The position numbers and the translations under genes are program-made. From Scatophagus argus (lineage: Eukaryota; Chordata; Actinopteri; Scatophagidae), in contig NC_058513.1 in assembly GCF_020382885.2 (NCBI RefSeq), positions 12,549,641 through 12,613,640 on the forward strand: a stretch of 64,000 nucleotides of DNA, given 5' to 3'. The notes below the pieces were generated by a model that was not told the DNA's origin, did no database searches, and saw only the letters and a list, made by a program, of their open reading frames with translations. This document shows, piece by piece, positions 1,649-45,586 of the stretch. The first letter of the stretch is position 1. Each line of letters begins with the position of its first letter.

Positions 1649-15589
<13,941 letters not shown>

Positions 15590-17611: not shown

Positions 17612-18988
17612 TCAGCTCTGCTCTCTTTTCTCAAGAAGGTGCATGTCCAGCTCCCTTAGCTGTTTCAGGAAGCCCCAGTTAGGGATGATCCGCCTGCGTT
17701 TTTTCACATGTTCGATAGCGTCGACCACCGTCATGTTCTGACAGATCATGAGGTAGGCGAGGAAGAGTGTGGCGGACCGACTCCTTCCCATCACGCAGTG
17801 TACCAGCAGTTTATCTGGAGAACCACAAAACCCAGGAAGAACTTCATTACACTTTTACCCAAATCACAAAAAAAAACATTTTAACTTCATTACAAGTATC
17901 AGGATTACACTATATGAACAAATGTATTGGGACACCTGACCATGACACAAACAGGGACTGAATTCTAAGTGCACAGACATTATTGGTCCTCCTTTTGTGG
18001 CTTGGGCAGCTTCTGCTCTTCTGGGAAAGCTTTCTGCAAGAAGGGTGTTTTGTGGGGGTTTTTTGCCTGTCCATGCAGTGGAGCATTTGTGGGGTCGGAC
18101 ACTCATGTTGGATGGGAGGGTTGGCTTGTGGTCTTCGATCCAGTTTGTCCTTGGGGTGTTTGATTGGGTTGGGGTCAGAGCTCTGTACAGGCCAGTTGGG
18201 TTCTTATGCACCGGACTCATCTGGCCATGTCTTTGTGGACCTTGTTTTGTGTGCTGGGGACTTTGTGGAGGAGGGCCTTCCCCAGGCTGTTGCCATGGAG
18301 TTTGGAGACATAGCATTGTCCAAAATGTCTTGGTATGCTGAAGCATTAAGATTTCCCTTCACTGGAAGTAAGGGGCTGAGTCGAACTCCTGAAAATCAGC
18401 TCCATGCCACACCTGATTTCATTAATAAAGGTATGTCCCAATACCTTTGTCTATATAGTGCTTTATGGGATATGGTTGACGCTTTAACTCTGTGTTATCT
18501 TACTCTGAGGATTGCTGAGTGTTTTGTCTATAAACTGGGCAACGGAGAAGAAATACTGGCTGAGGTCAAAAGTTGCGACGTCTTCTGCCACCACACCATA
18601 GTAGACAATGTCCATGTCACTGTAGTAACCAGCTCCCGTGTCCACGTTGTTCCACGTCCCCTCCGCTGCATTCAAGATGTGTGTAATCCCCAACCCCTTC
18701 AGCTTGTACTTGTCCTTTGCAGTCTCTCTGCAAGAAGCCAGTGAGAATATTATTTTAATCCTCTATTATTTTATTCAGTTTGGTCATTTAATACTTCTTT
18801 ACTTACTCGTCTCCGATGTAGACATTAGGCCAGACCTCGTTGACATGAGTATAAGCCACACTTCCTCGGTTGAGGATTTTCTCCAGCTCATAGCCCCCAG
18901 GTGTGACATATTCATCTGCTGGACTGGATTCCTCTGCTGCCTTTGTAGCATTAATCTTGGTGCCAGATTTTGACTTGTGAGAAGCCAT
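17612..18988 (-). CDS. dusp29: Dual specificity phosphatase 29 (DUPD1-like)
   Basis: Small atypical dual-specificity phosphatase; in mammals a muscle-expressed enzyme that removes phosphate from Tyr/Thr of MAPK/AMPK-type substrates (family knowledge). Exons on the - strand: 18807-18988, 18504-18727, 17612-17814, giving 202 residues plus TGA. The start is the ATG at 18988 (context [15 protein letters not shown]); the frame stays open upstream but without another ATG in good context. Landmarks: [14 protein letters not shown] and [14 protein letters not shown] in exon 1, [12 protein letters not shown] and the general-acid loop [11 protein letters not shown] in exon 2, active site [18 protein letters not shown] in exon 3. 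Intron 1 is 79 bp; intron 2 (689 bp) carries a MITE. The N-terminal [10 protein letters not shown] motif and gene order next to kat6b separate it from the DUSP13-type copies. Confidence 0.94.
17908..18460. mobile_element. Non-autonomous DNA transposon (MITE) with about 30 bp TIRs
   Basis: A 553 bp element in dusp29 intron 2. The left end reads CACTATATGAACAAATGTAT and the right end, reverse-complemented, CACTATATAGACAAAGGTAT; the match continues to about 30 bp with few differences. The interior is the kind of sequence found in many teleost introns and codes for nothing recognisable. I see no clear target duplication, so I leave the superfamily open (Tc1/mariner-like or piggyBac-like are candidates). 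Long open frames across it (17983-18744 on +, 17864-18346 on -) are not genes. Confidence 0.85.
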
Positions 18989-21303: not shown

Positions 21304-22748
21304 TCATGTTGTCTTTCTCTGCAGGGCCAAGCAAGAGTCCAAGTGACAGAGTTGATTCAGAAATCCAGCATTTGGAAGAACATTTCTGTGCCTGCGAACA
21401 GCCTGCACAGCCTCTACCAGGGTAAGTCTTTCTTTGATCATGAGGAAGGCCAGTGCCAGAGTCGCTGAGCGGCTGATCCCTCGAGCGCAGTGTATGAGGA
21501 CTTTACCTACACACACCAGAGACAGAATAACTCAAAATGTCAGCTGAGTCTATAACACACATCTGTGCCTCATATTGTTAAATAACTATCAGAATGTGAC
21601 TAATTGTAAAGGACTCCGAATGTAGGCAGTCTGCTCATGGTTTAATATACTCGGTAAGTTAGGATGAAAACATACTAACAGCAGTGTACAATAGCCTTTA
21701 TTTATTTATCTGTGAAAATCTAAAAGTTTCAAGGTGCTCCATTCATGCATTTTTGAAATTGTTTTTCTTAAAGTTTTTGATGCAAAATGAAAAAAAAAAA
21801 ATCAATTCTCTTAAATTGAAAAGCAGATTTTTATGTACATAGAACTAAGTTAAGAATTTTTATTTAAATGCCTGAAGCACAAATGTCTTAACTCTGGAGT
21901 CTCCAAAGACTTCAGTTTGCCACAAGCCCCAATTTAAACATCTTACAAACTTCTTTTCGATCCTTTTCAAGGCAGCAGCTGAACCAAGTTTTAATGGATG
22001 ATATTTGTTTACTCCCTCTGCAGTTTAATATCTGCAAAATGAACAAGTTTGCATGTTTAGGTCATAATTTTTCAGACTTAGATTTCAGCTGCGCCATGCA
22101 TCTCAACTCATTTTATATCATGATATGATGTATTATGATATATGCTATTATTTCACCCCTAACCCAAAGGACTCGTACCTTTCTGAGCCAGAGCACCATG
22201 AACAAAATCAGCCGTCTCAGTGAAGAATGCGCTCAAGTCAAAATCTTTGCAGTCTGGTGCTTCGACTCCGTGATACCGTATGTTGGTGTCTTTGTAGAAA
22301 TGTGGCCCAGTGTCAATGTGTTGGGAGCCATGTGCAGCATTCACCACATGTGTTATTCCCAGATTCACTAACAGGGGTATCTGCTGAGCTGTGGCCCTGT
22401 AAACCATACAAGAGACCATCCAACAAATGCAGCCTTTAACGATTTCTCTCGACTGTGGCCAGCTCTGTCAACATATGTCTGCAAACGCATCGCTGGTGAC
22501 TCAAATGTACAGATTTTAAATTTATCCAATCAGCTGGCCAAATACTGGACTTGTTTGCAGCAACAGTTTCTCAAACATATCAGCATATTGCAGCGGGGCC
22601 CTGAAGTGAATGTCACTTACGCATCTCCAACGTAGAGGTTGGGCCAAACCTCGTTGACAGCTCCGGTGGGACGTCTGTTCTTCAGCAGAAGGCTGAGCAG
22701 ATCGCAGGTGGGTGGTGTTTGATACTCTGGCTCCTCCTCTGGCCTCAT
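21304..22748 (-). CDS. DUSP13-like dual specificity phosphatase, copy 2 of the array
   Basis: Three exons on the - strand: 22621-22748, 22179-22396, 21304-21506; 182 residues plus TGA with the same intron phases (2, then 1) as its neighbours. The start chosen is the first in-frame ATG at 22748 ([10 protein letters not shown]); the frame is open further upstream, so a 5' exon cannot be excluded. Landmarks: [47 protein letters not shown] with the general-acid Asp, and active site [18 protein letters not shown]. The catalytic Cys, the Arg and the P-loop glycine are present, so it should be active; the Arg right after Cys-Ala is unlike the other four copies. I could not match it one-to-one with a mammalian gene, so no symbol is given. 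Confidence 0.87.
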
Positions 22749-23941: not shown

Positions 23942-26556
23942 TCAAGTCCGCCCGTTTACACTCCAGCTCCTCGATGATCCGTGGCAGTGCAGCTCTCTGT
24001 CCAGCTCTCGGAGCTGCTCCAGGAAACCAGCGTTTGGTGAGATGTTCCTGTTGGCGCTGACAGCTTTGATCGCGTCCACCAGCGTCATGTTCTCGTGGAT
24101 CATCAGGTAGGCCAGGACCAAGGTGGACGAGCGGCTGAGGCCCATCGCGCAATGGACAAACACTTTACCTGCCAATCGGTGGAAAACAAAAACTCAACAC
24201 TGCGTCACGTGGATCAATCCAGAGCTCAGCCATCCTCTGCCAGCTCCATTGCTATATTTGCAACTATGCAATGACTGGATTATTGTGGTGGACTTTATTC
24301 TGATGTCTAATTTGTTACTCCTGTGGATTAAAAACCATGCACATCACAGAGAGTAGTACTTCTAACTCCTGACTAAAAGTTTTCAACAATGTTGCAACAA
24401 ATGTTTCTACACACGGTAATCCCTGGTTCCTTATCGGCCCTGAGGATTAGGGGGCATAGGAGCGCGTAATTGAACTGTCTTGGCGTCTGTGTATTTCTGC
24501 CAGGGATTACTGTAGGCCCCGCCACACACTGGAGCCCCTGATCAGCCAGCATGTGAATGAGGAGGCCTCATCTTATTACTGTCATGTCAGATACCGACTT
24601 CACTTTGCATAACAGGCCAGGCAGGCACAGGCCACAAACATAATTGTGTAATTTCCATGTCCAATAAAAGTGTTGCTTACAAATTACCAGGGCAATCCAT
24701 TTAAAACCAATTTTCCTGGCCAAGGTCTGAGCTTATGAGAAGATTACCGTGGGGGAAAGATATTAGCTTGATATTATGTTTAGTGTTTGATTTGCATTTT
24801 AATGACTAATACAACTGGGGGCTGCTCTAAGGGGAATTGACTGACAAATGTTTCTGTTTCTTTGCCTTGCAGAAGAAAATGTCTTTCCCAGAGATGAAGA
24901 ATGATGAGAAATACCTCCTCACCTGTGGGCGAGCTCAAAGCGCTCTTGATAAAATTGGCCGCTGGGTAAAAGAAGGGACTCAAGTTAAAGGATGGCATGT
25001 CAAAAGCCTCCACCCCATGATAAGTGATTTTGGTGTCTCGGTAGAAGCTGGGTCCCGTGTTCACGTTGAACTTCCCATCAGCAGCATTAAGCACATGAGT
25101 GATGTGGTGAGCTTGAAGTGTCCTCTTGTCTTTGGCTGCATACCTAAAAGGAAAAAAAGCACAATTATCCGTTCAGTGCTGCTAAGTGAAAGAAGGAGCA
25201 CACTTAATGATAGTAAACAATATATATGGTAACTGTAAAATATGGGAATGCTCATAAATTATTTAGAAGTTGTCATATTTATGATTAATAAAACATTTAC
25301 TAATGCTTCATAAATAATTAACAAGCTGTATAATGCATAAATTAGATGACTGTGTTGTTAAGTTGTGGACCCACATTTAAGTTATGAACCACCTAAAAGA
25401 CCTACATTTTTTCTGCCCTTTAAACGTGCAGTATGTAGTTTCTGCTCCATAAAAATAGAACAAAAAGCACTGTCGTGAGGGGCCATGGAAGTTGTTTCAT
25501 TGTTAAACAACCACCAATGCTGATTAAAATCTGTCAGGCATGAGTTCATAGGCAGAAATGTTCACAGATGAGGTAATGTTTATAAAGTTTTATTCACTTT
25601 TCGTTTAGACGCGTTAAGACTTCCCTCCTCAATCCCTGACTCTGCTTGATTATCGTAACTCGACAAAATATGTAACATAGGGCTGTTTCTTTAAGTTAAT
25701 TTTCAGAACTGCTACCTGCATATATCATACTTTGACAGTTTAAACATTAACTGTTGTCTTCTATGGAGGTGCACCAATTGAAACCTCCTGAAAACATTTT
25801 TTTAACATGTTAGCTTTTTAGCATGTTGATATGCTAATGCTACATGCTACATCGACACGAGCATTTGTGTTGGTCTGAGATTCTTCTGGAGCTGCAGTGT
25901 GACATCCGGCGGTTATATCGCATTTTATTTATCCAACAGCAACATAATCATATATCTGGAGTCTTGTTTTTGGTCCAGCATTCACACTCTCTTTTCTGTT
26001 TTTGGTGTCCACCCATCTCCTGAGGCAAATGTCTGTCTCTCCAGCTGATAAATGCTCCACCATGTTCAACCAGCTAATTAGTCCCAAACTCTGCTCTTTG
26101 ATGCTGGGAAGGTAGCATCCAGGTGGCTTAGGTCTGCTGTGTCTGTGTGAAAACAACGCTGAGAGTGGAGCAACACTGAAATTGTTGCACTGAGCTCAAA
26201 GACCCCAAAATGCTCCTGAGAACTGAGGTTAACTTAAACGGTTATGCACAAACAGCTGTGATCCACTGTTAATCCAAAACCGTTGAAAAGAGCTGCTTTT
26301 ACCTTTAATGAATTGTCTTAAGTGGTGACACTTTCTATATTCTTTATTAGTATCCTTTATTATAAAGCATGGAGTTCGATTTTTTACTCTTCCAGTCTCA
26401 CATGTCTCCAATATAGATCCTGGGCTGAACCTCGTCCAGATGGTTGCTGGTCCCTTTCTTCGTCCACATCAGCCTCTGGAGATCTGAGGCTGGGGGGGTC
26501 TCATACCTGCCGTCTGCCCCCTCAGGGCTCGCCAAGCAGCTGAGGCCTCTGGGCAT
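23942..26556 (-). CDS. dusp13b: DUSP13B-like dual specificity phosphatase, copy 3
   Basis: Exons on the - strand: 26402-26556, 24923-25143, 23942-24168; 200 residues plus TGA. The start is ATG 26556 ([13 protein letters not shown]). An acceptor-like TATATAACAG lies just upstream on the - strand (about 26588), so an extra 5' exon is possible. Landmarks: [49 protein letters not shown], the general-acid loop [10 protein letters not shown], and active site [18 protein letters not shown]. Closest in my recall to mammalian DUSP13B (TMDP, testis and muscle) by NHxDEV, YAAxDK and the ENMTLVxAI segment. The usual EVWP tryptophan is Gln here. Intron 1 (1258 bp) holds an old dispersed repeat. Confidence 0.88.
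24413..24513. repeat. Short inverted repeat in dusp13b intron 2
   Basis: GTAATCCCTGG at 24416-24426 is matched by its exact reverse complement CCAGGGATTAC at 24500-24510. The arms extend to 14 bp with one mismatch and are separated by about 73 bp. It could be a weak hairpin or the end remnant of an old element. Confidence 0.6.
25417..26190. repeat. Degenerate teleost dispersed repeat in dusp13b intron 1
   Basis: The start (about AAACGTGCAGTATGTAGTTT) and the interior segments near 25965-26110 (TGTCCACCCATCTCCTGAGG, TGATAAATGCTCCACCATGT) resemble a repeat I have seen in many fish introns. The boundaries are approximate and the copy is old. No coding capacity. Confidence 0.4.
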
Positions 26557-29852: not shown

Positions 29853-31101
29853 TTACAAAATCTGACATGTTTTCTTTTTTCTCGTCAGCTGAAGATCCAG
29901 ATCCAACAGCAAAGCCAGAAAATTCCTGTTGGGGTAGATGGCTCTCTTCTGGATCAATTTCCGCAAAGCCTGTTTGAGGGGGAGGTGACAGTAGATCATG
30001 AGGTACGCTAACACCAAAGTCGATGACCGGCTCATTCCCATGATGCAGTGCACCAGAACTTTCCCTGAAGAACAGACAAGATGAAGGGGAAAGAGGGATG
30101 TGAAGGAAGGATTAGCGAGAGGCCTCAGTCTTATTAATATCATACATGGCTGCCTGTCTCATGCTGTGGCCTTTCTTTTTTCCTGCTGTGAGCTAAAAAT
30201 AGTTCCCACAATTCATCGCCTTTGTTCATTTAAGGTCCCTTTGCAGACGGGGCCGACTGTCTCTTTAATCCCAACTCGTCCTCTGCTTGATAGCTTCTTT
30301 GAAAAGAGCCATGGTCATATTATAGACTTAAATTCTGCAAGGTAAGACCCTTATTATTACCGCTGGCTGGAAATACACTTACATATTTCAAGCTGTGTTA
30401 CATTGTGGTGACATTGAAAGGACAGCATGAAGAGAGAATTTGAGTAGATGGGTTTATTAAGGATTTAAGAAGGGAAATAAAAGATGTGCAGGAATGTCAA
30501 AAACTACCACATTTCTGCAGCAAGTTACTCAGTCCATGTAGCTGCTGAAACAACTGAATTGTATAATTAACAATCACTATGCGGAAATATTACAGTGTGA
30601 AAAAGAAGCCTTGAGGAGTCTTACCATCAGGTGACTTCAGCGCTTTATGAATGAAATCAGCTGCCAGTTGGAAGTAAACATCCAGATCAAAGTGTGTCGA
30701 GTCATCTGCTGGAATGCCACAATACACAAAGCTGTTGCCATAAAAGCTTTGGTTCCCTATGCTGCCTTGCTTCGAGTGTGCAGCGTTTAATACATGAGTT
30801 ATACCTAATTTCTGCAAGGCAGCCTTGTTTTGTGCTACTGCCCTAGCAAAACAAAGAGACAGAAAGAGATTCAAGACTTGCGTGAACCCTAAGCATCACA
30901 GGACAAGGTTTTATACCAGAATAACACAATCACTTTTAATATATAATAGCTGTTTGACAAAATGTATACTTACACATTCCCTATGTATATTTTTGGCCAG
31001 ACCTCATCAACTTCATTAAGATGTAGTTTGCATGAGTCCAAAACCTTCTGCAGATCCTTCACAGTCAGATATTCTTTTCTCTTGTCTTTCAGGGCTGACA
31101 T
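29853..31101 (-). CDS. DUSP13A-like dual specificity phosphatase, copy 4
   Basis: Exons on the - strand: 30974-31101, 30625-30842, 29853-30064; 185 residues plus TAA. The start is ATG 31101 (MSALKDKRKEY). Landmarks: [49 protein letters not shown] with the general-acid Asp, and active site [18 protein letters not shown]. The FYGxS and GxPAxD signatures put it in the DUSP13A (MDSP) group, together with copy 5. It has a short N-terminus and a Lys-rich C-terminus (LTRKKKTCQIL). Intron 1 is 131 bp and intron 2 is 560 bp. It may be a fish-specific duplicate of dusp13a or a more diverged paralogue, so I give no symbol. Confidence 0.88.
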
Positions 31102-32584
31102 TCTCAGTCCAAAAAAACTCCCGTCCTGGATCAATTACCAGTCCAAATGTTTGTTGTATTAAAGCAGTTCCCGTCAACTCCGGCTCAGGATGATCTGTAC
31201 GAGCAGGTGTTTATCTGCTGTCACTGGACAGTTACCCAATTTAGTGCTTAACCTAGCGTGTAGTCTTACTCATGCAGAGGGCAGAACAACAAACAGTGCA
31301 GCCCAGGCTCTGCTTTTCACACCGCTGTGGGACTCTAATTTAATAAGGCTCAAACAGAGATTAATCATTCCATAAAGCACTGATAATTGGATGTAATTAA
31401 GAACAAAATGTTTAAGCGTGTTGCTTGTAGTGGATGGCAGAAAGTCCAGCTTAATGTAACATTTATGAAATGGAAATACTGTAACAGCTCCATGCAGCTA
31501 GTCAGCTGTGCTGACATAAATATCTTGTGAAAAACAAATTGGCTGAAGAGGGGGGAAAAAATTAAGCTTTGCCGTTGGCTGCACATAACATCAAACAGCC
31601 CTCACTCTGCTGCAGAATATTTTTTACCCTCCTGTTATGTTGCAGGTCATTTTCACCCATTTCAGCTTTTGAATGAAAGAAAAACATAATTAACCCTCCC
31701 TTTTAAGGCATGAAATGTAATGGCTTCTTTCCATTCGGGGTCATGAATGTGTATGTAAAATGTGGATGAAGTGGTGTGCTGTGAAAAGTCGGTGCTGATG
31801 TTGTACACAAAATAGTCAATAAAGGTCTCCAGGTCATTTTGACCTGGAGACAGTTATTGACTGATTATTTAAAGTGCTGCTTCTGCTTATTGATCAATCT
31901 ACGGTGGTGTAATGTGGTGGGAACAAATCCCAGCTGATGTGCACATAATACCTAGAAAATAAGATCCATACCTGCTGCTGAATGTGAGATTCAGATGTGT
32001 AGGATGACAAAATCCAGTTGTATGTGTTTCTGTGTGGGAAGAGGATTTCTAAGCATTTTAAGCACTGAGAGAGACACTTAACAGTCCACCAGGCAATAAG
32101 ATTATTATTTTTTTACTCTGAAGAGCACGAGTCATGTAGAGGAAGATTTCTGAGCTGTTAATGATCCAGGTTTTTGCTGAAGAAGATTGAAAATGTTAAA
32201 TGTGTTCCCACATCATCTTCTTCCTCTGCTGTGGAAGACTGTGGAAGTCCAAGCTTCATCTTCAGCACGTTTCAAAGACCTGAGAAAGGAAGGCTTTTCA
32301 GCATTTCACCACAACGTGTGTTGGCAAGAAATGCAAAAGCTGGAAAGACAATGAAACTGACACGAGATGTATAAAATGCATAAAATGAGACTTTTGAACA
32401 CTTACAGATAAGTTTAGTTTATGTTTTTTAATGAAGGCAGCCCAAAAAAATTTTATAACTGTTAATACACATGTTGCCTACGTTTATCACCATTGTGTTT
32501 AAAACTTAATAGATTAAAACTCACTGAGGCGTGTTGTTATATATGGTTAGAAACTGTTATATTGTCAAGAATTCATTATCTGTA
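31102..32584. other. Spacer between DUSP copy 4 and the transposon
   Basis: Promoter side of copy 4. From about 31627 (ACCCTCCTGTTATGTTGCAG) to 31870 it resembles a teleost dispersed repeat and includes the palindrome at 31814-31862. No exon or RNA gene seen. It ends at the TA (32583-32584) flanking the transposon. Confidence 0.5.
31814..31862. promoter_or_regulatory. 49 bp near-perfect palindrome with consensus oestrogen response element
   Basis: The arms AGTCAATAA-AG-GTCTCCAGGTCA and TGACCTGGAGAC-AG-TTATTGACT pair over 21 of 23 positions around a TTT loop. The core at 31831-31845 is AGGTCA-TTT-TGACCT, which is the full consensus oestrogen receptor element (inverted half-sites, 3 bp spacer). 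It lies within sequence that looks repeat-derived, so function is uncertain. Confidence 0.6.
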
Positions 32585-32613
32585 CACAGCAAATGTGCCA
32601 GTGTTAATTTTCC
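32585..32613 (+). repeat. Left terminal inverted repeat of the transposon
   Basis: CACAGCAAATGTGCCAGTGT followed by TAATTTTCC. It matches the right terminus with a 1-2 bp gap. The preceding TA is shared with the right flank. Confidence 0.85.
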
Positions 32614-32689
32614 AGTGTTCTTTATATTTAACAACGTTTAGAGTTATTATAACACGTAACTCTGCAAAACTAACACCCACAGAGTTAGT

Positions 32690-33159
32690 GTTGTTGTAAA
32701 TTTTGGTCGTTTCTCGCGGAGTAACGCTGTTGAGTGTTCAACTTGACCACGCCTTTCAGTTCCTGTGAAGAAGCGCCTTAAAGTGTGCGGTCGCCATTTT
32801 TCCATGTCGCATGGGTAAGTTTTACTCGGTCAAATTTTCTAGTTTTAGGTTGATATTAACATAAATGTTGGCAGAAAGTGTTAAGTGACTTGCATTTGCT
32901 GCAGGTGTTTTGCAATTAAGTCTACTGAATAAATTCATTTCGGAAAGTATTTTTGTAGAAGTGACCGGTTGCTAGCAAGAACTTAAGTATCTAGCTAATT
33001 TAATGCTTTACTGCTAAATAAAAACCGCGACTCGTTTTAAAGACGTTCTTTTATTCTTTTCAATTGCAACTTTTATAACCCATATAACAACTGCAGGGTG
33101 AACTGGCCTGCAACAGGGAGCATACGAGCGATAACAGCAGATGAGAGAGGGAGAGAAAG
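32690..33159 (+). promoter_or_regulatory. Transposon promoter and 5' leader exons
   Basis: CpG-containing sequence with a YY1-like CGCCATTTT at 32792-32800 just ahead of a strong donor (ATGG/GTAAGT, exon end 32814). A second leader exon is 33097-33159, acceptor ACTGCAG, donor AAAG/GTAAGT. That exon holds an ATG at 33141 which runs in frame into the next exon. The transcription start itself is not visible. Confidence 0.5.
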
Positions 33160-36100
33160 GTAAGTTGTTTTCTATGACTGCTTTTTAATGGCTGGCTGTC
33201 ACTTTATGAGCCGTTAGCGACATAACTATTCACAAAATATTTGTTGACGCGTAGCTTTACTCTAACAGCAGCAATTAGCAGCAGTAATTAGCTCTCCATT
33301 GACCCTGCATAGCGACGTAAGCTAACCGCGGTGCATCCCGCCTGTGAGGACGGTCGGCTTCGTTTACTCTTCGAACCTCCGGTAGCATAAGTTGGTTTTG
33401 CATTTTCCTCATTAAATACTCTAAAAATGCTGGTGTGTAAACCGTGTTATGTGGCGTATTTTAGTACAGCATATTTTCACGTAGCTACTCGGATGACGTT
33501 TCAAATATGGATCGCAGCTAATGTTTACAGATAAAATTACTACAGTGCAAAGGGCTACGGTTGTGAAAACTGCACAGACCGGACTCTGCTTTCTTCACAG
33601 TCACCGCATACGTTGAGAACTGTGTGCGTCCCTCGCGTTAATTCTTATAATACACGGTTTACACACAGTTTATGCTTCAAAATTGCAAGGCTACCAATGC
33701 TGTCTGCTGCATTATATGCTTATAAGTGTATAATATAAAGTCATAAAATGCCGCACATTTAACGTGGCAACTGGTCTGACATGGTGGAAGTAAGCAAAAT
33801 CTGATTTTATTTTTTATTCACCTCTGATAGGTAGTGGTGCTGAGCAGTAGCAAGTTTTGTCACATTACTGTTATTTTCTGCTCCCGTATTTAGCAGGAAA
33901 ATAACATCAATAACAATGAATATGCTTATAACTTCATTATTTACTTTGTTTAGTGATATATAATTTTTATTCTTGTCATTGAAGGCTGTGATATGCTGGT
34001 TCCTGTAGAGTATAAGGGAGTGAGTAAATGGGTGAGGGTGCCAAAGACAGAAGATGTCTACAGTTACCAAGAATTTGTAGAAGGAGGTAATGTGACAGCA
34101 GTGGTAAAAAATAATTAAGCATTTTAGCATGGTTGTAATTTGTGGTTTCTATTCTAAGTATAATTTGATACTAATACAGGTATTTATATATTAAGTTATT
34201 GGTACTTGTAAGAACAATATAACTTGTTTTTTTTTGTATGCTTACTAACATTTGAGCATACAGGAAGGATATCTGTGTGTATTTTGACTTGATTTCATGT
34301 CATAACCTTTCATGATGTAATGTATATTTTCTTTGTTAGTGCTGGTGAAATTCAATTTGCCAGATTTTACATCTTTGATGCTGAAGGATTCTGCAGGAGT
34401 GGAAGTGGATGAGGACATATTTGATGAACTTTTGAAGTCATCGGGGGTGTCTTTTAAAGCCTTCACTGAAGGATGTCATGGTAAGAAATTAATTGGATGA
34501 TGTAATTATGTATTGACCCTTAGTTCTTTAAACTTATTTTTACAACACATGGCTGTTTTTGTGTTCTTAGATGACAGTGTTGAGGATTCTTCTTCAGAGG
34601 CGTCATTCTCAGAGTGGTCCCCATCACGTGCATCTGGGGCGTCATCATCATCGGGTTCAGATGTAACAATAATATTGGAATCCACCAAAGCACGCAAAAG
34701 ACAGCTGATTGAAGGGCCCCCTGACAGCATTATAGCAAAAGATGTAAGCTGTATTTTTCTGTTCTTGTGTTAACTAAGCCAGTCTGTTTTATACAACTAT
34801 TATTTAATGAACAGAGCAAATATTTACTGTTATGTATCTCTGAATGTGCCTTATATGGAAATCATGCAATTGTTATTTCAGACTGTTATGGTAGCCCTGC
34901 ATTCAAAGCCAGGTGGTAATCAAATATTCAAAGAATATGAGAAAACAAACCGTCTTTCTGATGGTACAAGAAGAAAGATGGTGAACATACTCGTGGCTGA
35001 CATGGTAGAGACTCATGGGTAAGTGAATATGCACTTGCAAATATTGCAACATTTTTAATTTTATATGTTTACAGTTCAGTACAATTCTAATATTCAGTTT
35101 AAATGGTTTGACTAAAACCACTAAAACAGTTTTAGTCAACATACATAAGTAATTGATGTAAATGTTGTTTTGGGCTAAAATATCTTCTCAGTGATGCATC
35201 TGTCTTTTATTAGGAGGATCCCCCCAGTAAATGTCCGCATAACATATGCACTTGGCATTACAACGTTGTTCCCCAACTTGAAGGACCCAGATTCAAAGAA
35301 TGGTTATGTAAGTATTCACCTATGCTCTTATTTCTTTCTTAACATGGTATTTCTCTCCACAGTATTAATTATGTAATGTCTGTTTGTTAGAGGACTTGTA
35401 GTATTATACAGTACTTGTGTATTTGTATTAAAATGCATTAAAACATGTAGTTTTCCAGACACGCACAAAAGTTCTCTGTGTAATGTAAAAATGTACTGTA
35501 AACTCTCATATTTTATTGTGACAGAATTTTCAAATTACTACATTTTTTACTGTAGCATACCCCAATGGTCGATAATCTTTTTATTTTGTGCTATAAGATA
35601 CAGTTGAGCTGACAGTGTTGAATTGATCATATGTCTGATCTGTACAGGATTAACCTTTTTTTAATTGACAGGAACATTTTTATGACCACCAGAGTGGGTC
35701 TGGCTACCTAGCATGGAGGTTGAAAACCGTCCAGCGCAACTCTACTGGAGAGATAAAGAAATCCAAGTCATGTTTTCAACAAGGTCCCAAGACTTCTCGC
35801 AACATGTGTTCAGTTGTGAAGCAGTTGTCTGGTGATGAATGCAAGGAGGCTATGTCAGTGATGAGGCACTCAGCTGACAAAAAGCTTGTTAAAGAAAAAA
35901 TGATGGCAACATTTCAGCACAGACAAAAGGTGGTTCAAGATCCAGCTACAACCTCCACTGTCCTGGACCATTTCCCAAGATTTCTAGATACCCCTGGCTT
36001 GGTATGATAAAGAATGGTTGTTTTTATCAGTTTAGGCTGTAATATATTTCTTCCAATGCTGATTTTGTTTTTTTTGTTTTTTTTAGATTGATCAAGATTT

Positions 36101-37007
36101 CACAATGCTCTTTGGTGAAGAAGTGTCGGGTAAATTCCTGGCAAGATGGCCAACATTCTTCAAACCGAGGATCATCTCAGATTGCAAAAATCTTCCTGAA
36201 AGTGCTCATGTCAGTGAGCTCCTTTTGTCTGCACAACAAGAGTCTGAAGATTGTGGTAAGTGTAAAACAGATGTCTTACGGGAGCAATTACAACTGTACT
36301 CCCTGTAACTATTTTGTCATAACTACAACATCAACATCAACTCTGGTGGTCTAACAAAAGTAATCACTCTTTTGCCAATTGTCTAGTCTGGGACTCTGAG
36401 GTGGCTGCCATCCTTTTGCTTCTTCATCTGTTACCTCCAACATCCAAGGGTAGGAAAGCTTCAAAGATTAGCACATCTGATGCTGCTGACCGGCTGGTGA
36501 AGTTCATTAAGGTATGTTATCAGTCAAGTTATTTGTTGTTTTTGTTTTTTTTCAAGGGCCTGTGTTGATGTTTCAATGTGCATTTAAGGTGGGAAATCAG
36601 GTATTTTCTCTTAATTCTTGGGTGCTTACTCTACAGCGAATTCCAAATTTCTTTTTGATTGATTTGGTATCTTTATTGCTCAGGTGGGGCGAAGCATGGA
36701 TGCCTTCCTCAAAGAAACTGGGCCTGTTCAACCACTTCTTCTGTGTGTCGGAGAAAGAAAGAACAGCATTCAAAATTTCTACATTGTCCTGGACCAAAAA
36801 GTCATTCCCTGTTCAACGCAGACCGGAGTTGCTGCCTTTGATGAGCTGTTCAAGGCCCATTTTGCTTTTGCTGTGTCCTATGACGAGGCATTGAACAACT
36901 TCTACACATTCATCCAGACCACTGTGTACGGCATCGATGTTGGTGTTATGAAGGAGAGTCCTCGAGTCAAAGAAATCAGAGCAAGACTTCTTCATACTGC
37001 AGTTTGA
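33141..37007 (+). CDS. Transposon ORF1: SAMD3-like protein with CIDE-N/PB1-like N-terminus
   Basis: Ten exons: 33141-33159, 33985-34086, 34340-34480, 34571-34743, 34882-35018, 35214-35307, 35672-36001, 36087-36255, 36387-36511, 36684-37007. Phases join cleanly to 537 residues plus TGA; the alternative start ATG 33993 gives 528. The N-terminal 80 residues (VEYKGVSKWVRVP, VLVKFNLPDF, LKDSAGVEVDEDIFDELL) look like a ubiquitin-fold CIDE-N or PB1 module. Then come an acidic Ser-rich linker and a region like the C-terminal half of the many teleost proteins annotated 'SAM domain-containing protein 3-like' (SGYLAWRLKTVQ, FLARWPTFFKPR, FYIVLDQKVIPC, YDEALNNFYTFIQ). I see no SAM domain itself. The role is unknown; an accessory transposition or host-interaction protein is a guess. 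Confidence 0.8.
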
Positions 37008-37030
37008 AGAACACATCTTTGCCTGGAAAT

Positions 37031-39463
37031 ATGTTCATGTGTTACATTTGCAAGGTACACCACACAAGTTGTTCATTGTTATTTAGACATTTGAAGTTTC
37101 AGCATGGTCTGTACCCAGGAAAGTCTTTGCGTTTGAATTGTGGAGAGCCTGGATGTTCCTTTGTGTTTTTGACATATTCTGGTTACAAGCGGCATTTATC
37201 TCGAGCACATGGAAATGGTGTTGATTCAGATGTTGTCAACAGTTTTGAGCCTGTTGCTAATGTTGGAGCCTCAGTATCCCAGCCAGTAAATGCTGATACT
37301 TCTGTGACTGTCACAACTCACATTCCAATTGAAAAAAGGCAAATACAAGACATGTGCAGCTCTATTGTTGCTCAAGTACAAGCCTCAGGAGTTCCAGAGA
37401 GTACTGTCCAATCTTTAGTTGGCTCAATGGAGGAACTGGTCAATGACATCCATGCACATGCAAAAGAAGCTGTTGTTGAATGTTTGCCATCTGATGCATC
37501 CAGAGAAACATTAGAAAAAGTCCAAGATTGTTTTGATCAACTTCAAAATCCATTCTCATGTCTTAACACAGAGTGTAAAAGGTTGAGACATTTTGAGAAA
37601 AAATGGAAAATAGTTGAGCCTGTAGAGCATATTCTTGGTGTCCGCTTTGACATACGTAGAGACAAAACGACAGGCACATACAGGCAAATTCCTGTCAATG
37701 ACAAGTTCATGTATGTACCCATTATGGGGTCTCTTTCATCCATGTTTAGGAACAGTGAACTGTGCAACAGTTTTAAAAAGGCAAAACCACACCAGGATGG
37801 GGTCTACAGGGATGTTAATGATGGTTCTTACTTCAGCAATCACATTTTATTTTCACAGCAAGAATATGCTCTTCAGATCCAGCTCTACTATGATGATTTT
37901 GAAACTGCCAACCCCTTAGGCTCAAAAAGAGGTGTACACAAACTTGGTTGTATTTATTTTGTTTTGAGAAATTTGCCACCAAAGCTGAATTCTGTGTTGA
38001 TGAACATTCATCTTGTTGCCCTCTTTCACTCAGATGACCTAAAAAAATATGGATTTGATCCTATTCTGAAGCCACTTGTTGATGATCTAAAGATGTTAGA
38101 GACAGAAGGGATGCAGCTGCCGTTTTCAGCTTCAACTGTGAAAGGCTCAATTTTTCAGGTTACTGGTGACAACTTAGCTTTACATGGCCTCTTTGGGTTT
38201 GTTGAATCATTTAATGCTAATTATTCTTGTCGCTTTTGTTTAACTGATAGAATAGAGTTGCAGTCAGTTTTTAGTGAGGATCATCCAGGTTTAACTCTAC
38301 GTTCAAAAGACCTCCATTCACAACATTGCAGTGCCATTCAACAAAATCCTTCTCTGACCTCAGTATTTGGTGTCAAAAGAACCTGTTTGCTCAATTCTCT
38401 TCAGCTGTATCATACTTCAGACAATTTTGCTGTTGATATTATGCATGATCTGTTGGAAGGAGTGGTGCAGTACGAGTTAAAGCTTGTGTGTCAGTATTTG
38501 ATTAAGAACTCCATATCCTTGAATTCATTGTTGGAGAGAATAATGAGTTTTAATTATGGGTTCACCCAGAGAAAAAACAGACCAGGTCTGTTAAAATTAG
38601 ATGACAATAGCAAGGATCTTGGGCTTAATGCTATTCAATCTTGGTGCCTTTTACGAAACACCCCATTAATGTTTGGAGATTTAGTTAGCAGGGATGATAG
38701 CTGCTGGAACTTGCTACTTCTCTTAATACAAATTGTAAACATTGTCTTTGCACCTATTGTTACCCATGGTATGACTTGCTATTTGAAGCATCTGATTTTG
38801 GATCATCACACACTTTTTAAATCTGTCTTTCCAGAGCGAAATTTGATTCCAAAGCATCACCTAATGATCCATTACCCAAGTTGTATTCGGAAAATTGGGC
38901 CACTTATTCACATGTGGTGCATGAGGTTTGAAGGAAAACACAATTTTTTCAAAAAGTGTGTGAAGAACTTCAAAAACATCACAAAAACTCTTGTTAAGAA
39001 ACACCAGAATCAGTTGGCTTTTCATTTTGAAAACTTCTACTTCAAAAGATTACAGTTTGGCTCTATTAGTGAAGTCTTGGCTAGCAGTTTAGAGGGCAGT
39101 GAGGCACTGAATGAAAGGTTTGGTGTGTCTTGTTTTGTTTCTACAACTTCCTGGGTCAAAAGCTATGGTACAGAGTACCAAGTTGGGATGTACGTATGCA
39201 CTGGTGTTGACAATGAGATGCCTTTGTTCAACAGGATCATCAGTATAATTGTTAGAGATGACAATGTTTATCTTCTAACTTGCAAAGTCTCTACATTGTA
39301 TTTTGATGACCACCTAAATGCATTTACTATCGGGGAAAGAACAGATGGTTTCACCCTTGTTTGTATAGATGATCTTGTGTATTACAGATCTTATGATCAG
39401 CAGTTTGCATATGACTCTGAACAAATCTATATTGTGCCATACAGTGTTTTTATTCCATGCTAA
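37031..39463 (+). CDS. Transposon ORF2: C2H2 zinc-finger DDE transposase-like protein
   Basis: A single open frame of 810 residues plus TAA. The start is the first ATG (37031), 23 nt after the ORF1 stop; the frame is open slightly further upstream without an ATG. Two C2H2 fingers lie at about residues 4-25 (CYICKVHHTS...HLKFQH) and 38-62 (CGEPGC...HLSRAH). A long insertless core follows, with DNFAVDIMHDLLEGVVQYEL around D469 and HMWCMRFEGKHNFFKKC around E634, the expected places of the first catalytic Asp and the catalytic Glu of a CMC-type RNase H fold. I could not assign the middle Asp with certainty. AATAAA at 39499-39504 follows the stop. The frame is intact, so the copy may be young. Confidence 0.82.
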   Translation: MFMCYICKVHHTSCSLLFRHLKFQHGLYPGKSLRLNCGEPGCSFVFLTYSGYKRHLSRAHGNGVDSDVVNSFEPVANVGASVSQPVNADTSVTVTTHIPIEKRQIQDMCSSIVAQVQASGVPESTVQSLVGSMEELVNDIHAHAKEAVVECLPSDASRETLEKVQDCFDQLQNPFSCLNTECKRLRHFEKKWKIVEPVEHILGVRFDIRRDKTTGTYRQIPVNDKFMYVPIMGSLSSMFRNSELCNSFKKAKPHQDGVYRDVNDGSYFSNHILFSQQEYALQIQLYYDDFETANPLGSKRGVHKLGCIYFVLRNLPPKLNSVLMNIHLVALFHSDDLKKYGFDPILKPLVDDLKMLETEGMQLPFSASTVKGSIFQVTGDNLALHGLFGFVESFNANYSCRFCLTDRIELQSVFSEDHPGLTLRSKDLHSQHCSAIQQNPSLTSVFGVKRTCLLNSLQLYHTSDNFAVDIMHDLLEGVVQYELKLVCQYLIKNSISLNSLLERIMSFNYGFTQRKNRPGLLKLDDNSKDLGLNAIQSWCLLRNTPLMFGDLVSRDDSCWNLLLLLIQIVNIVFAPIVTHGMTCYLKHLILDHHTLFKSVFPERNLIPKHHLMIHYPSCIRKIGPLIHMWCMRFEGKHNFFKKCVKNFKNITKTLVKKHQNQLAFHFENFYFKRLQFGSISEVLASSLEGSEALNERFGVSCFVSTTSWVKSYGTEYQVGMYVCTGVDNEMPLFNRIISIIVRDDNVYLLTCKVSTLYFDDHLNAFTIGERTDGFTLVCIDDLVYYRSYDQQFAYDSEQIYIVPYSVFIPC

Positions 39464-39498
39464 AATGTTCAGATTTTGTTGGTGTACCTGTATTTTTT

Positions 39499-39504
39499 AA
39501 TAAA
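39499..39504 (+). terminator. Poly(A) signal of the transposase transcript
   Basis: AATAAA 36 bp after the ORF2 stop, in an A-rich context. Confidence 0.65.
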
Positions 39505-39584
39505 AAAAAATATTTTTGTACAACTTACATTGTTTATAGGTTTGTGAAGTAGATGGTGGGTATAGTGGTAAGAGGGGGATTAGT

Positions 39585-39898
39585 TGTCCACAACATTCTA
39601 CACTATCAGAGTTAATTGCATTACACCAGTTAAGTGTAATATTTTGCACTGGAGTATAATTGGGAGTGTTGTTTTTGTAACACTGACACTAGTGTATAGT
39701 TATATCAACACTATTGGGTGTTAGCCAGTGTTAATTTTTAACACCTATCAGAGTTAATATTACTCTAGAAGGGTGTTAAAAAATGTACACTTTTGAAAGT
39801 GTTGATTTAACACTAGAAAGTGTGGACACATATAGACACTTTTGTAGTGTTAAAATTAACACTCTCAGAGTTAATTTGACACTGGCGATTTTGCTGTG
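39585..39898. repeat. Right subterminal repeat array and TIR of the transposon
   Basis: At least ten copies, in both orientations, of AGTGTTAA/TTAACACT and CAGAGTTAA/TTAACTCTG variants over about 310 bp, ending in the right TIR (39870-39898). Such subterminal arrays are transposase binding regions in CACTA-type elements. The left end has fewer copies (32603-32690). Confidence 0.8.
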
Positions 39899-39900
39899 TA

Positions 39901-40469: not shown

Positions 40470-41256
40470 TCATGATGTCTTGCGCAGTTTCGTATCCAAA
40501 GCACAAAGCTGTTTAAGGAATCCTCTGTTTGGGAAGATCCACCTGCGCTCCTTCACTTTATTGATTGCGTCTAGTAGGGTGTAATGGTGGTGGATCATGA
40601 GGTAGGCCAGGACGAGGGAGGCAGACCTGCTCACCCCAACTGCACAGTGGACAAAAACCCGAGCTGGTCAAAAAGAAGAAAAAAGATTTTGATGAGCCTA
40701 AAGCTTGAGCTGATATTTTGGTTTTACTCTGGAAAAGATGAGCGGCATTCAGGGCAGCCTGCACAATCGGAGCTAAAACTGAGTGACAGTAGAGCAACAT
40801 GACGGGTATTTACCACCAGCAGTGTCGAGTGCACTCTGAATATACTCAGCAGAGGGGAAGAAATAGCGAGAGAGGTCAAAGGATGGTGAGTCATCAGCAG
40901 GCACTCCATAATAATCCACAGTGGAGCCGTAGAAGTCATGACTTCCCTGACAGTGCATCCTGCCATGAGCGGCGTTCACAACATGAGTGATTCCCAGCTT
41001 CCATAGACTGTAGCGATCATTTGCCACTGACCTGTGCACGAAGGAGGCAGGGATTACAAGAAACACATTATTAGGAAGTGTTATTTTCATGTTATAAGCT
41101 GTCAAGAGAAAAGACTTACATGTCACCAATGAATAGGTTAGGCCAAACTTCATCCACACGATTACCAAACTTTTTTCCTCCATACAACACTTTCACCAAG
41201 TCTTTAACAGAAGGATTGGCAGGGGAAACTGCATTACTGTCCTGTAGATTGTTCAT
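40470..41256 (-). CDS. dusp13a: Dual specificity phosphatase 13A-like (MDSP), copy 5
   Basis: Exons on the - strand: 41120-41256, 40814-41031, 40470-40663; 182 residues plus TGA. The start is ATG 41256 ([16 protein letters not shown]). Landmarks: [49 protein letters not shown] with DDSPSFDLS after it, and active site [18 protein letters not shown]. The CQGxxDFYGS segment and the LWKLGITHV start of exon 2 match mammalian DUSP13A closely in my recall. It is the most compact copy (introns 88 and 150 bp) and the one next to samd8, the position of DUSP13 in tetrapods. The catalytic Cys, Arg and general-acid Asp are all present. Confidence 0.92.
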
Positions 41257-42786
41257 AGTTGACTGCAGGGATGTTTATAGGTGCCTACATATAAAACAAT
41301 ATTCTAAAACTACCCATATGTATGATTCACATCTCCCAACATTAATTTTCAAACTCTGTTGAGGCTTTACTACAACCATGAAGTAAACTGACAAGGACAG
41401 GTGTTCCTGGTCTAAAATTAAATAGTGACCCATATTCTAAATGTTAATGAACCTCACACCTTATTATACGCCACACCTTCTTAACGATAGTTTACGTGCA
41501 GTCATGATTTTTCATTTTGTGGTCTTAAACTGCACAAAGACTTCCTTGTTTTTCACTATAATCACAACATGCTGCAGAATTAAAGCTGCAGTACCACATT
41601 TTCACCAGTAGGTATCACTGCTGGTCAAGCGGAGCTGAGCACCTCTAGCCGAATTTTTCTTTGCGCAGCTATTGTGGACATTACTACCTTATGTTGTCAA
41701 CAGTAATGCTAACCAGCGCGAAGCCAGGGCGAAATGATTTACAACGAGACCGTGTTATTGCAAGAAATGCTAATAAGATTTCGTCAGATTTATTTGAGAT
41801 GCTATTTAGCTAGCTAGCTAAATAAAAGAGCCTCTGTGTCGTCCTCTGTTACATCTCAGTGCAGGTGAGTGAGCGTAAGGCGCACGCATTGATTAAGCTA
41901 GCAAATGGCTTGGTAGCTAACTTTAGCCAGCACTAAATTAGCCTAGTGGGGCAGGGTTGTTGAGATAGAAGAAAGGATGCTTTCGTTTGGTTTCATGTCT
42001 ACCCCATTAATGCTTGTGGTTACACACACCGTCTTGTACCATGTTGGCTAATTATCTTACAAGATACAAAAAGATGTCAGTAGGATTAGCTCCTGGCCCC
42101 ACCTTACTGACAGCCGGGGATGTCGGTTGATGCAGTTGCATGTTTTTCTTATTGGATAAAGTTAATCTACGGACCGCTTGTAAACCACAAAAGCTATGGT
42201 GCCAAAATATTATGTATTCTCATAACATGAAGTTTTAGATATGTTAACACTGTACCGATGGCTTGATTTTTTTTTTAATTGAGACGATATTAATTCGTTA
42301 AGTGTCTAGGATAAGGTGATTAGTAATAAGATTGGGGAAAACAACCAACTAGTGAACATCCATGACTATCTTTTAAGTCTCAGCGGCAGCCTCTGGCCTG
42401 GGGAATATGTCTGCTCCTTCACCCACATTTTTAGGGTGTGATTTCTATTGTGCAAACTTCTCTTGGCAAACTCTTGTCTCAAATATTTGCTCAAGTTGTG
42501 AATACTCGGCTTGTCTGTGGAGCTCAGCAAATGTCTTGAAGTTATTTATCACTTTTTTTTCTCGCAAAGTGAAGTTATTCTCAGTCTATGTGGCAGTTAT
42601 ATGTAGTTTGTTAGGAATTAGTATTGCTGATTCAGTGGAAATTTTGAGTGTCTACTTCTCCTTAAGATTTTTTTTTGTTGGTGGTGACCGAGTCAACAAG
42701 GAACCCTGTTTGACAGTAAGGGAGAGTCTAGCTGTTTGTGTGACACTCGTATGTTCTTTTCCTTCAGCCCTCAGAGTGAAAAGGAA
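41257..42786. promoter_or_regulatory. Divergent dusp13a/samd8 spacer with probable samd8 5' exon
   Basis: The two genes are transcribed away from each other here. A CpG-bearing stretch at about 41630-41870 ends in a good donor (CAGTGCAG/GTGAGTGAG, exon end about 41865) and is a likely samd8 non-coding first exon. The first coding samd8 exon starts at its acceptor at 42768. The region between shows no other gene. Confidence 0.5.
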
Positions 42787-45586
42787 ATGATACAGCTCAG
42801 TGTCCGTCGCTGGACGCCCAAACACGTCGCCAAATGGCTGAAGGAAGAGGGCTTCTGTGACTACGTGGACCTGCTGTGCAACAAGCACCGACTGGATGGC
42901 ACCAGTCTGCTCGCCCTCAGTGAGTATGACCTCCGATCACCCCCTCTGGAGCTCAAGGTCCTGGGGGACATCAAGCGGCTGATGGTGTCCATCCGGAAAC
43001 TCCAGAAACAGAACATAGACGTGTTAGAAGAGCTGGGCCTTCCCTTTGATGGCCACTCTCCTACAGGCTCCGGAGGCAGTTTGGACTGGCTGTGTAATGG
43101 AGAGTCAGGCAGAGACTGTGATAGCACTGACACTGCTCCAGTGGGAGAGGAGTATCACCAGTACACTAATGGGAAGTACAAGCAACAGACAAGGCGCCTG
43201 GATCCAGAGTACTGGAAGACAGTGCTTAGCTCCATCTATGTGGTGTTTGTGTTTGGATTCACGTCCTTTGTCATGGTCATCGTGCATGAGAGGGTGCCTG
43301 ACATGCGCACATACCCTCCACTGCCAGATATCTTCCTTGACAGGTGGGTACGTGATAGCAAAGACACTCTCAGACCTTGTTTTTCTGACCTGGGGCACTG
43401 GGTGGCCTTCAAAAAACAACAGAAACAGCCAGCTTTGAAATTCCAAAGAGCGAGCGAAACAAAAATATGCATTTTTATCAACTGTCAGAATATCACACCA
43501 GATGGTGGACATTATAATTGCCCTACTTCCTTGTAGCATGTTTCTATTATTGTCCTCACATATTCCTGATGGGCTAGCTTTAGTTCAAAGAGATCTTTGA
43601 GTGTTTTTTAAAGTGACCTACTTTGTAGTGTGACTCATTTATGATCAGCTTTAAGCTTTACGTGGAATATCATAGTTTATTGTGAAAGCTAATTTTAGAG
43701 AAATGCCTGTAAATTATTTTTGTATTTAGGATCCATATTTTGGTATTTAAAATCAGTCAAGTTAGAAACTTTCAACATAGAAATTAGTATCTGTTTGAAG
43801 TATTTAAGCCTTAACTTAGCTAATACTAATGCTGCTTAATTAATGATTTATGTAACAAAATTATTATTGATTCATCCTTTTTTCCAATCAATTTCCTCTT
43901 TCCAACAGTGTGCCCAGAATACCATGGGCCTTTGCTATGGCTGAAGCATGTGGAGTGATCCTCTGTAATATCTGGTTGCTGGTTCTGTTGCTCCACAAAC
44001 ACAGGTAGTCTTTCATATGAGTGTTTTCCCTACAGAGAGTCTACTGTAGGATGTTTGCAGTGTGTTCCTTAGGTCAGCACCATGGACGCTACAGGTTAAC
44101 TGTTTCCCGTGACTTGTAGGTCGATCCTTTTGCGGCGCATGTGCAGCCTCATGGGGACGGTGTTCATGCTGCGCTGTATCACCATGTTTGTCACCTCCCT
44201 GTCTGTGCCAGGACAGCACCTGCAATGCTCAGGAAAGGTAAGACATAATGAAATTTTTTGTGTATTAATTCTTAAACATGATCTTCTTTCTGAGATATCG
44301 CAGTACTGATAGTTTTACATCTGCTCTTCTTCCAGATGTACGGTGACATGTGGGCCAAACTGCAGCGCGCTGTAGCCATCTGGAGCGGTTTTGGGATGAC
44401 CCTGACCGGAGTGCATACGTGTGGTGACTACATGTTCAGTGGCCACACTGTGGTCCTTACCATGCTCAACTTCTTTGTCACAGAGTGTGAGTAGCCTCTC
44501 AGTCTTAGCTCATTTTTGTTTGTTTGTTTTACCTTCTGTGGAGAACAGAACCACTTACGTAACTTAGAAAGGCCCTTTCCTATTAAGACTAAGGTGAAAT
44601 GGCTGCGGAATAAATCATAATATCACTAACTAAATTTAATTTTAAAAAGACCAAACTGAAGCTTTAAACATCACTTACGCCCTTTGGTCTGTTCTATGAT
44701 TAAAGACTTGGTAACTTAATTTAAGGCTTACCTAAATGGTCGTTCTTGATCTAGTTCCAAAAGAGCAAAGCAAAACAATAATCAAAATATACCAAAAATG
44801 ATAAGATACTATTTTTTTGTTTCACATGGGGTTTTAAATTCAAGCCTGATTTTAAGTAAAACACAAGATAATAGCTTTAAATTTACTTTGTGTTAAGACT
44901 TACACATAGTTGCTTTTAAAATGTCACAGTGGTCACGAGTTTTTGTCCATATCCATTCATGAAAATCACAAAAAGTTACTGTTGATGAAAGCTGGGACAT
45001 TAGAGGGTTAAAGTAATGTATCAAGAGGAGGACCCAGGTAGAGCAGGGAACAATGCAACTGTATGAGGCAATATTGCACTTTTGTTGCCATCCAGTGCCG
45101 TTCTCTGGTATTACAACTGGAATAAAAACAAGTTTTCTTCCGTCTGACCTGCGCAGAAGTCGTCTGTCAGCTCAGAGAGTGTGAAAAATCTCTGAATGGT
45201 GTCGTGAAACTGCAGACAACAACAACAGAGTAATACTTTAACGATTGTATCTTCAGCTTTTATTTTTTTCTCATTTCACAGACACTCCACGGAGCTGGAA
45301 TTTCATTCACACGTTGTCCTGGGTCCTGAATCTCTTTGGCATCTTCTTCATCCTGGCTGCACACGAGCACTACTCCATCGACGTGTTCATAGCGTTTTAC
45401 ATCACTACCAGACTCTTCCTGTACTACCACACTCTGGCCAACACCCGGGCCTACCAGCAGAGTCGACGAGCTCGCATCTGGTTCCCCATGTTCTCCTTCT
45501 TTGAGTGCAATGTGAACGGGCCTGTCCCCAATGAGTACTGCTGGCCCTTCTCTAGACCTGCTGTGATGAGGAGGCTGATTGGATAA
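42787..45586 (+). CDS. samd8: Sphingomyelin synthase-related protein 1 (SAMD8/SMSr)
   Basis: ER enzyme that makes ceramide phosphoethanolamine from ceramide and phosphatidylethanolamine and acts in ceramide homeostasis (family knowledge). Coding exons: 42787-43343 (exon begins at acceptor 42768), 43909-44004, 44120-44237, 44336-44486, 45282-45586; 408 residues plus TAA, near the roughly 415 of the human protein. The start is ATG 42787 ([14 protein letters not shown]). Residues about 5-72 form the SAM domain ([36 protein letters not shown]). The membrane part follows from about residue 140, with the conserved HERVPD loop. The PAP2-like catalytic triad is visible: H294 in [14 protein letters not shown], and H337 and D341 in [11 protein letters not shown]. 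The C-terminus [17 protein letters not shown] is conserved. Confidence 0.97.

Follow-up and report, generated by a model that had tools for sequence, protein, structure and literature searches.

A complete two-gene DNA transposon, very probably of the EnSpm/CACTA (CMC) superfamily and recently mobile, in the fish Scatophagus argus

Background

CACTA elements are best known from plants, in which they generate 3-bp target duplications; EnSpm/CACTA elements carry short repeats in both subterminal regions, and maize En/Spm combines such repeats with CAC...GTG ends. Here we describe a 7.3-kb, two-gene element from Scatophagus argus which, in our assessment, is very probably a full-length, recently mobile and autonomous-looking EnSpm/CACTA (CMC) DNA transposon. 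The element lies in a stretch of 64,000 nucleotides (the window; contig NC_058513.1, positions 12,549,641 to 12,613,640 of the forward strand, assembly GCF_020382885.2), to which all coordinates below refer.

EnSpm/CACTA is a superfamily in Repbase (PMC5753468). The CMC/CMCT transposases are defined by a DDE triad with C(2)C and H(3-4)H motifs between the second D and the E; members of the CMCT clade have CA...TG ends in most cases and 2-5 bp target duplications, the ESTA lineage using TA (PMC12730594). In Spm, two proteins derived from one alternatively spliced unit are required for transposition (cited in PMC1636069). Among animals, the TRC elements of the CACTA superfamily include SmTRC1, which is alternatively spliced and produces 2-bp target duplications (DeMarco et al. 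2006, PMC1636069). Whole-protein TRC matches were reported in Danio rerio, the ends being characterised only in S. mansoni, A. aegypti and T. castaneum (PMC1636069). The label CMC-EnSpm is in use for teleosts (PMC4746887, PMC11753138), and the class is therefore already annotated in fish. The literature that we searched held no recognised account of the two-gene pairing described below in fish; Repbase, outside that search, may hold the family. A samd3 gene is named in PMC11258905, which has no bearing on the element.

Extent, termini and sister copies of the element

The transposon occupies positions 32585-39898 (7314 bp), running from CACAGCAAATGT to GATTTTGCTGTG; it is complete and undamaged, and its coordinates are exact to the base. 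The left terminal inverted repeat, CACAGCAAATGTGCCAGTGTTAATTTT (32585-32611, plus strand), and the right inverted end, CACAGCAAAATCGCCAGTGTCAAATTA, are alike at 21 of 27 bases. All four full-length copies in the genome (see below) have CAC...GTG termini, the terminal core being CACAG, and all four are flanked on both sides by TA, which in the window occupies positions 32583-32584 and 39899-39900. In an older, broken copy on contig C1 the flanking dinucleotide is CA, not TA, at either end, which identifies it as a true 2-bp target duplication that lies outside the element. The subterminal repeats, consisting of AGTGTT/AACACT together with AGAGTTA on the left (32585-32884) and extending on the right (39599-39898) through the inverted end to the terminal GATTTTGCTGTG, are concentrated at the extremities: AGTGTT/AACACT occurs 13 times in the outer 300 + 300 bp, and no more than once in each of 123 interior segments of 600 bp. 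The inverted repeats, TA flanks and subterminal repeats proposed in an earlier, sequence-only reading of this DNA are thus confirmed.

A 601-bp query from the left end located at least six places in the 570-Mb assembly, the window's own included. Three of them are further full-length copies, designated L007 (contig C15), L008 (C11) and L009 (C6), with 99.7%, 99.7% and 99.0% identity, respectively, to the window copy (blastn). The fifth is the broken C1 copy, read as a single copy from two loci (L010 and L032), and the sixth (L011) is decayed. No difference separates L007 from L008 over 7313 positions; from either of them the window copy is separated by 21 differences in 7313 positions, and from L009 by 41 in 7293. 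Because L007 and L008 are identical on different contigs, transposition must have been very recent. In each of the four full copies both genes read open, and the accessory gene contains no coding insertion or deletion (indel) in any of them. Of the 53 positions with substitutions, 17 belong to the coding sequence (4020 bp) and 36 to the non-coding sequence (3294 bp; Fisher P 0.0012); all 10 indel events in the four full copies likewise lie outside the coding sequence (P 3.4e-4), a pattern of constraint that favours the transposon reading. The recent activity presumed in the sequence-only reading is therefore substantiated by three more full copies at unrelated sites, and the ends which it had proposed to trace genome-wide do recur. 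With sister copies in the same genome, two of which match each other exactly, this complete vertebrate-type copy lends itself well to transposition tests in cells.

Transposase and classification

The transposase is encoded by an open reading frame (ORF) of 810 residues (37031-39463, plus strand) without an inner stop, as the sequence-only reading had also noted in calling it a C2H2/DDE frame. It comprises what we read as two C2H2-type fingers at the N-terminus, a DDE core and a DUF4218-like C-terminal part. Searching the assembly with this protein gave at least 61 matches; besides the four full copies, these comprise pieces of the C1 copy and further sequences with 28-66% identity. Nine proteins drawn from these matches (30 of which have loci; 56 of 205 candidates were scored) were aligned; the remaining three full copies, mates of near identity, frames that were broken or partial and any match lacking a locus were set aside. 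Residues D288, D380, C400/C403 (CxxC), H610/H614 (HxxxH) and E634 are invariant in all nine; the assignment of D288, D380 and E634 as the catalytic triad is our reading of this alignment.

In the window protein, the Pfam matches to Transposase_21 (E 0.016) and DUF4218 (E 0.017) both fall below the curated cut-offs, which counts against the assignment, and the class consequently rests on the catalytic signature and on the relatives. At E up to 1, Transposase_21 was matched by five of the nine proteins (best 7.7e-4), DUF4218 by two (best 0.017) and Plavaka by one (6.4e-4). When the transposase profile was compared with the PDB, only C2H2 zinc-finger matches were of note among the best 60 of 115 rows, and the single sequence matched nothing convincing there. 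A scan of viral contigs with six transposase peptide patterns found nothing. A structure prediction from the single transposase sequence was discarded (mean predicted local distance difference test score, pLDDT, 35.7).

The D, D, CxxC, HxxxH, E signature, the CAC...GTG ends and the 2-bp target duplication are all CMC features. The core CACAG, in place of CACTA, and the duplication of only 2 bp are the reasons why we do not file the element as a plant-type CACTA. The CAC...GTG ends and the subterminal repeats, the latter an EnSpm/CACTA feature, are shared with maize En/Spm, from which the element differs in gene order. The signature, CA...TG ends and duplication size are as in the fungal EnSpm, Plavaka and ESTA lineages (PMC12730594), from which it differs in host, all of those being fungal and some carrying TET/JBP genes; the likeness is one of features. 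With SmTRC1, compared by description, the element has in common a 2-bp duplication and, to judge from its weak Pfam match, possibly a transposase of the Transposase_21 type, whereas the tips of the TRC inverted repeats are CCC instead of CAC and, in the parts of that account examined, no accessory gene like the present one appears (PMC1636069). The element had been put forward as possibly an undescribed kind, a suggestion that finds no support here, since its transposase fits the CMC definition and animal CACTA relatives were published in 2006 (PMC1636069).

The accessory gene and its relatives

Upstream of the transposase, and on the same strand, lies a gene modelled with GT-AG introns as nine coding exons (33993-37007; 528 residues). 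Exons 1-5 occupy 33993-34086, 34340-34480, 34571-34743, 34882-35018 and 35214-35307, and exons 6-9 occupy 35672-36001, 36087-36255, 36387-36511 and 36684-37007. The sequence-only reading was correct in presenting this gene as spliced and open, although it counted ten exons. It also described the product as SAMD3-like, a name that our domain search does not bear out: at E up to 10 the protein matches no Pfam family, and no SAM domain was detected. Its profile matched nothing convincing in the PDB.

Relatives of the accessory protein are found (tblastn) upstream of transposase pieces at loci L033 and L038. At L034, weak accessory-like pieces (profile E 6.6e-4) precede a transposase relative, and this locus is possibly another member with the same gene order. 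Other families of the same genome (L019/L020; L021/L022 with L036 and L039; L023/L024; L025/L026; L027) have the same type of transposase, 28-31% identical to that of the window at L019, L021, L023, L025 and L027, and an adjoining, probably related accessory ORF. In these five loci, however, the accessory ORF is a different-looking long open frame downstream of the transposase, as opposed to the upstream position in the window element. The five frames align with each other, and their profile (built from the five ORFs, at least two of which are cut by the end of the locus) is also matched by the near-identical mates L020, L022, L024 and L026 and by L036 and L039. The last two proved to be further L021-family copies (identical at 94-98% of DNA positions in the main pieces, 92% in one), and the number of families with a downstream accessory is therefore five. 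A PB1 domain was matched by three of the five downstream ORFs (E up to 5; best 9.4e-4).

The window accessory protein aligns collinearly with the downstream group over 135 columns (hhalign E 4.1e-4, probability 35%). Against the group profile it scores 12.0 bits, compared with 7.2 for the best of its 500 shuffles, a control which preserves composition only and in which 300 of 501 sequences were reported; in the profile database search it obtained E 0.014 for the whole sequence and 0.06 for the best stretch. On the strength of these comparisons we consider, with moderate confidence, that the window protein and the downstream ORFs of the five families are homologous. Given the accessory hits across these loci, the accessory/transposase pair is therefore common in this clade within this genome. 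No confident accessory match was found within about 1.5 kb on either side of the transposase relatives at L016, L017, L018, L029, L031, L035, L037, L040 and L041; a SAM-like stretch suspected in L029 was dropped, as it has no Pfam match. The sequence-only reading had held a long accessory gene ahead of the transposase to be uncommon. The pairing itself recurs in other families of this genome; the upstream order was seen only in the window element and its nearest relatives (L033, L038 and perhaps L034). The recurrent pairing also suggests that some of the fish gene models called SAMD3 or uncharacterised zinc-finger protein may be transposon genes.

Expression of the two genes

The two genes are closely packed: the accessory stop codon (37005-37007) is separated from the transposase ATG by 23 bp, and the only AATAAA downstream of that stop inside the element, at 39499-39504 on the plus strand, is likely a shared poly(A) signal. 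Neither AATAAA nor ATTAAA occurs between the accessory stop and position 39499, and no ATTAAA follows the stop within the element. Near the left end, two leader exons are predicted on the plus strand. Leader exon 1 (32804-32814, ATGTCGCATGG; 5' end provisional) would end at a GTAAGT donor that the four full copies and the broken L010 retain and that reads GTAAAT in L011. Leader exon 2 (33097-33159) would be bounded by the acceptor ACTGCAG and a GTAAGT donor, both kept in the four full copies and missing in the decayed L011. All four full copies carry a candidate 3' splice site, GACTTCTTCATACTGCAG (36985-37002, plus strand), 28 nt upstream of the transposase ATG; this acceptor, ...CTTCTTCATACTGCAG, ends at 37002 and overlaps the accessory stop codon. 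When the leader exons are joined to 37003, the resulting frame stays open into the transposase, whether leader exon 2 is included or skipped.

From these features we infer a scheme in which both genes would share a single promoter close to the left end and a single poly(A) signal close to the right. Full splicing would yield the accessory protein, and skipping to the acceptor that overlaps the accessory stop would yield an mRNA with the transposase as its first long ORF. Either the accessory protein or the transposase fingers would then bind the subterminal AGTGTT repeats and bring the ends together, and the transposase would cut and insert at a dinucleotide, most often TA. Such a division of labour would be that of TNPA and TNPD in maize En/Spm, to which the proposed layout of two proteins from one unit is analogous; the accessory protein is matched to TNPA by role only. 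In its fullest form, this proposal envisages a fish CMC lineage, with the accessory gene ahead of the transposase, in which a single 3' splice-site switch at the accessory stop gives either the accessory protein or a transposase beginning with a short stretch coded by the leader. The accessory protein, PB1-like N-terminally in other families, would serve many animal EnSpm families as a conserved second protein of transposition and would be an independently arisen counterpart of TNPA. We offer this combination tentatively and judge it rather unlikely to hold in full.

Several points weigh against the splicing scheme. The leader exons, the splice choice and the use of the poly(A) signal are all predictions from the sequence. 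When the leaders are joined to the accessory exons, the frame opened by the leader ATG is soon closed by a stop; with the leaders used in this form, translation of the accessory protein would have to begin further on, at its own ATG. The candidate acceptor is only moderately pyrimidine-rich (0.67), and a site 113 nt further upstream scores 0.73. A fair acceptor lies within 30 nt of the transposase ATG at four of eight loci, compared with 18% expected at each (P 0.04); the cut-off was chosen after the data had been seen, and the excess is weak and suggestive only. In the broken copy L038, an acceptor precedes the transposase ATG by 27 nt, but it lies beyond the accessory stop, and the candidate join is in a different phase.

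Alternatively, expression of the two genes may rely on a dicistronic mRNA or on two promoters, a possibility that we take seriously while holding it to be somewhat improbable. The short distance between the genes, the single poly(A) signal after them and the weakness of the splice evidence all agree with it. Against this stand the usable acceptor 28 nt before the transposase ATG in each full copy and the alternative splicing employed by both animal and plant relatives (PMC1636069). A concrete accessory protein is now named, whose need for transposition is testable.

Transposition versus other origins of the copies

The aligned portion of the copies ends at the inverted ends, and the 900-bp flanks of the four full copies show no mutual similarity (E 1e-3). 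That the copies are segmental duplications instead of transpositions would accord with their presence in a single assembly, with the identity of two of them and with the proximity of some other families on one contig (C16). Yet the arrest of the alignment at the inverted ends, the 2-bp duplications of each copy and, strongly for the four full copies, their unrelated flanks make this account highly improbable.

It is equally improbable that the two genes are domesticated host genes which lie by chance between inverted repeats. In its favour, both frames are intact and, as noted above, the coding DNA varies less than the non-coding. The occurrence of the whole 7.3-kb unit, ends included, at four unrelated sites with 99.0-99.7% identity, two of the copies being identical, argues strongly against it.

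Two further results are unfavourable to the view of the element as a recently mobile, autonomous-looking transposon. Codon changes among the four copies are six silent and two replacing in the accessory gene, and three silent and six replacing in the transposase ORF; the transposase codon changes lend no support to selection on the transposase alone, and show no sign of constraint by themselves. In addition, the window flanks were joined at a single TA and compared with the window only: no match crosses the join, and there is no paralogous empty site there.

PIF/Harbinger elements also carry two genes, and the TA flanks together with the gene pair might point to that or another TA-target superfamily such as Tc1/mariner, an assignment made very unlikely by the signature with CxxC and HxxxH, the CA/CA target of the older copy and the Pfam matches to tnp2, DUF4218 and, in one relative, Plavaka.

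Other recent families and window surroundings

Five other CMC families in the genome include pairs of copies that are 99.4-99.98% identical in the main aligned piece (L019/L020, L021/L022, L023/L024, L025/L026 and L016/L017), and recent movement may therefore extend to several related transposons. The loci L016 and L017, about 70 kb apart, may represent a duplication. The near identity of L025 and L026 starts at or just before a TA followed by CACTGTAAACCCAG, and these loci probably belong to another family with CAC ends preceded by TA.

In the window, the element is situated in a tandem array (17615-41192) of five genes of the dual-specificity-phosphatase type with HCxxGxxR frames, all on the minus strand (17615-18762, 21307-22467, 23945-25172, 29856-30895 and 40473-41192). 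A frame of the fifth copy matches DSPc with E 4.7e-5, below the cut-off. The array is split by the element, as had been claimed, between its fourth and fifth copies, but it does not interrupt any phosphatase gene: about 1.7 kb separate it from the fourth copy and 0.57 kb from the fifth, and it lies inside neither. A long ORF at 12272-15589 resembles the C-terminal part of a KAT6-type acetyltransferase, a likeness that Pfam does not support. An ORF at 42688-43536 contains a SAM domain (SAM_1, E 4.2e-9), resembles SAMD8 and is probably a host gene beside the element.

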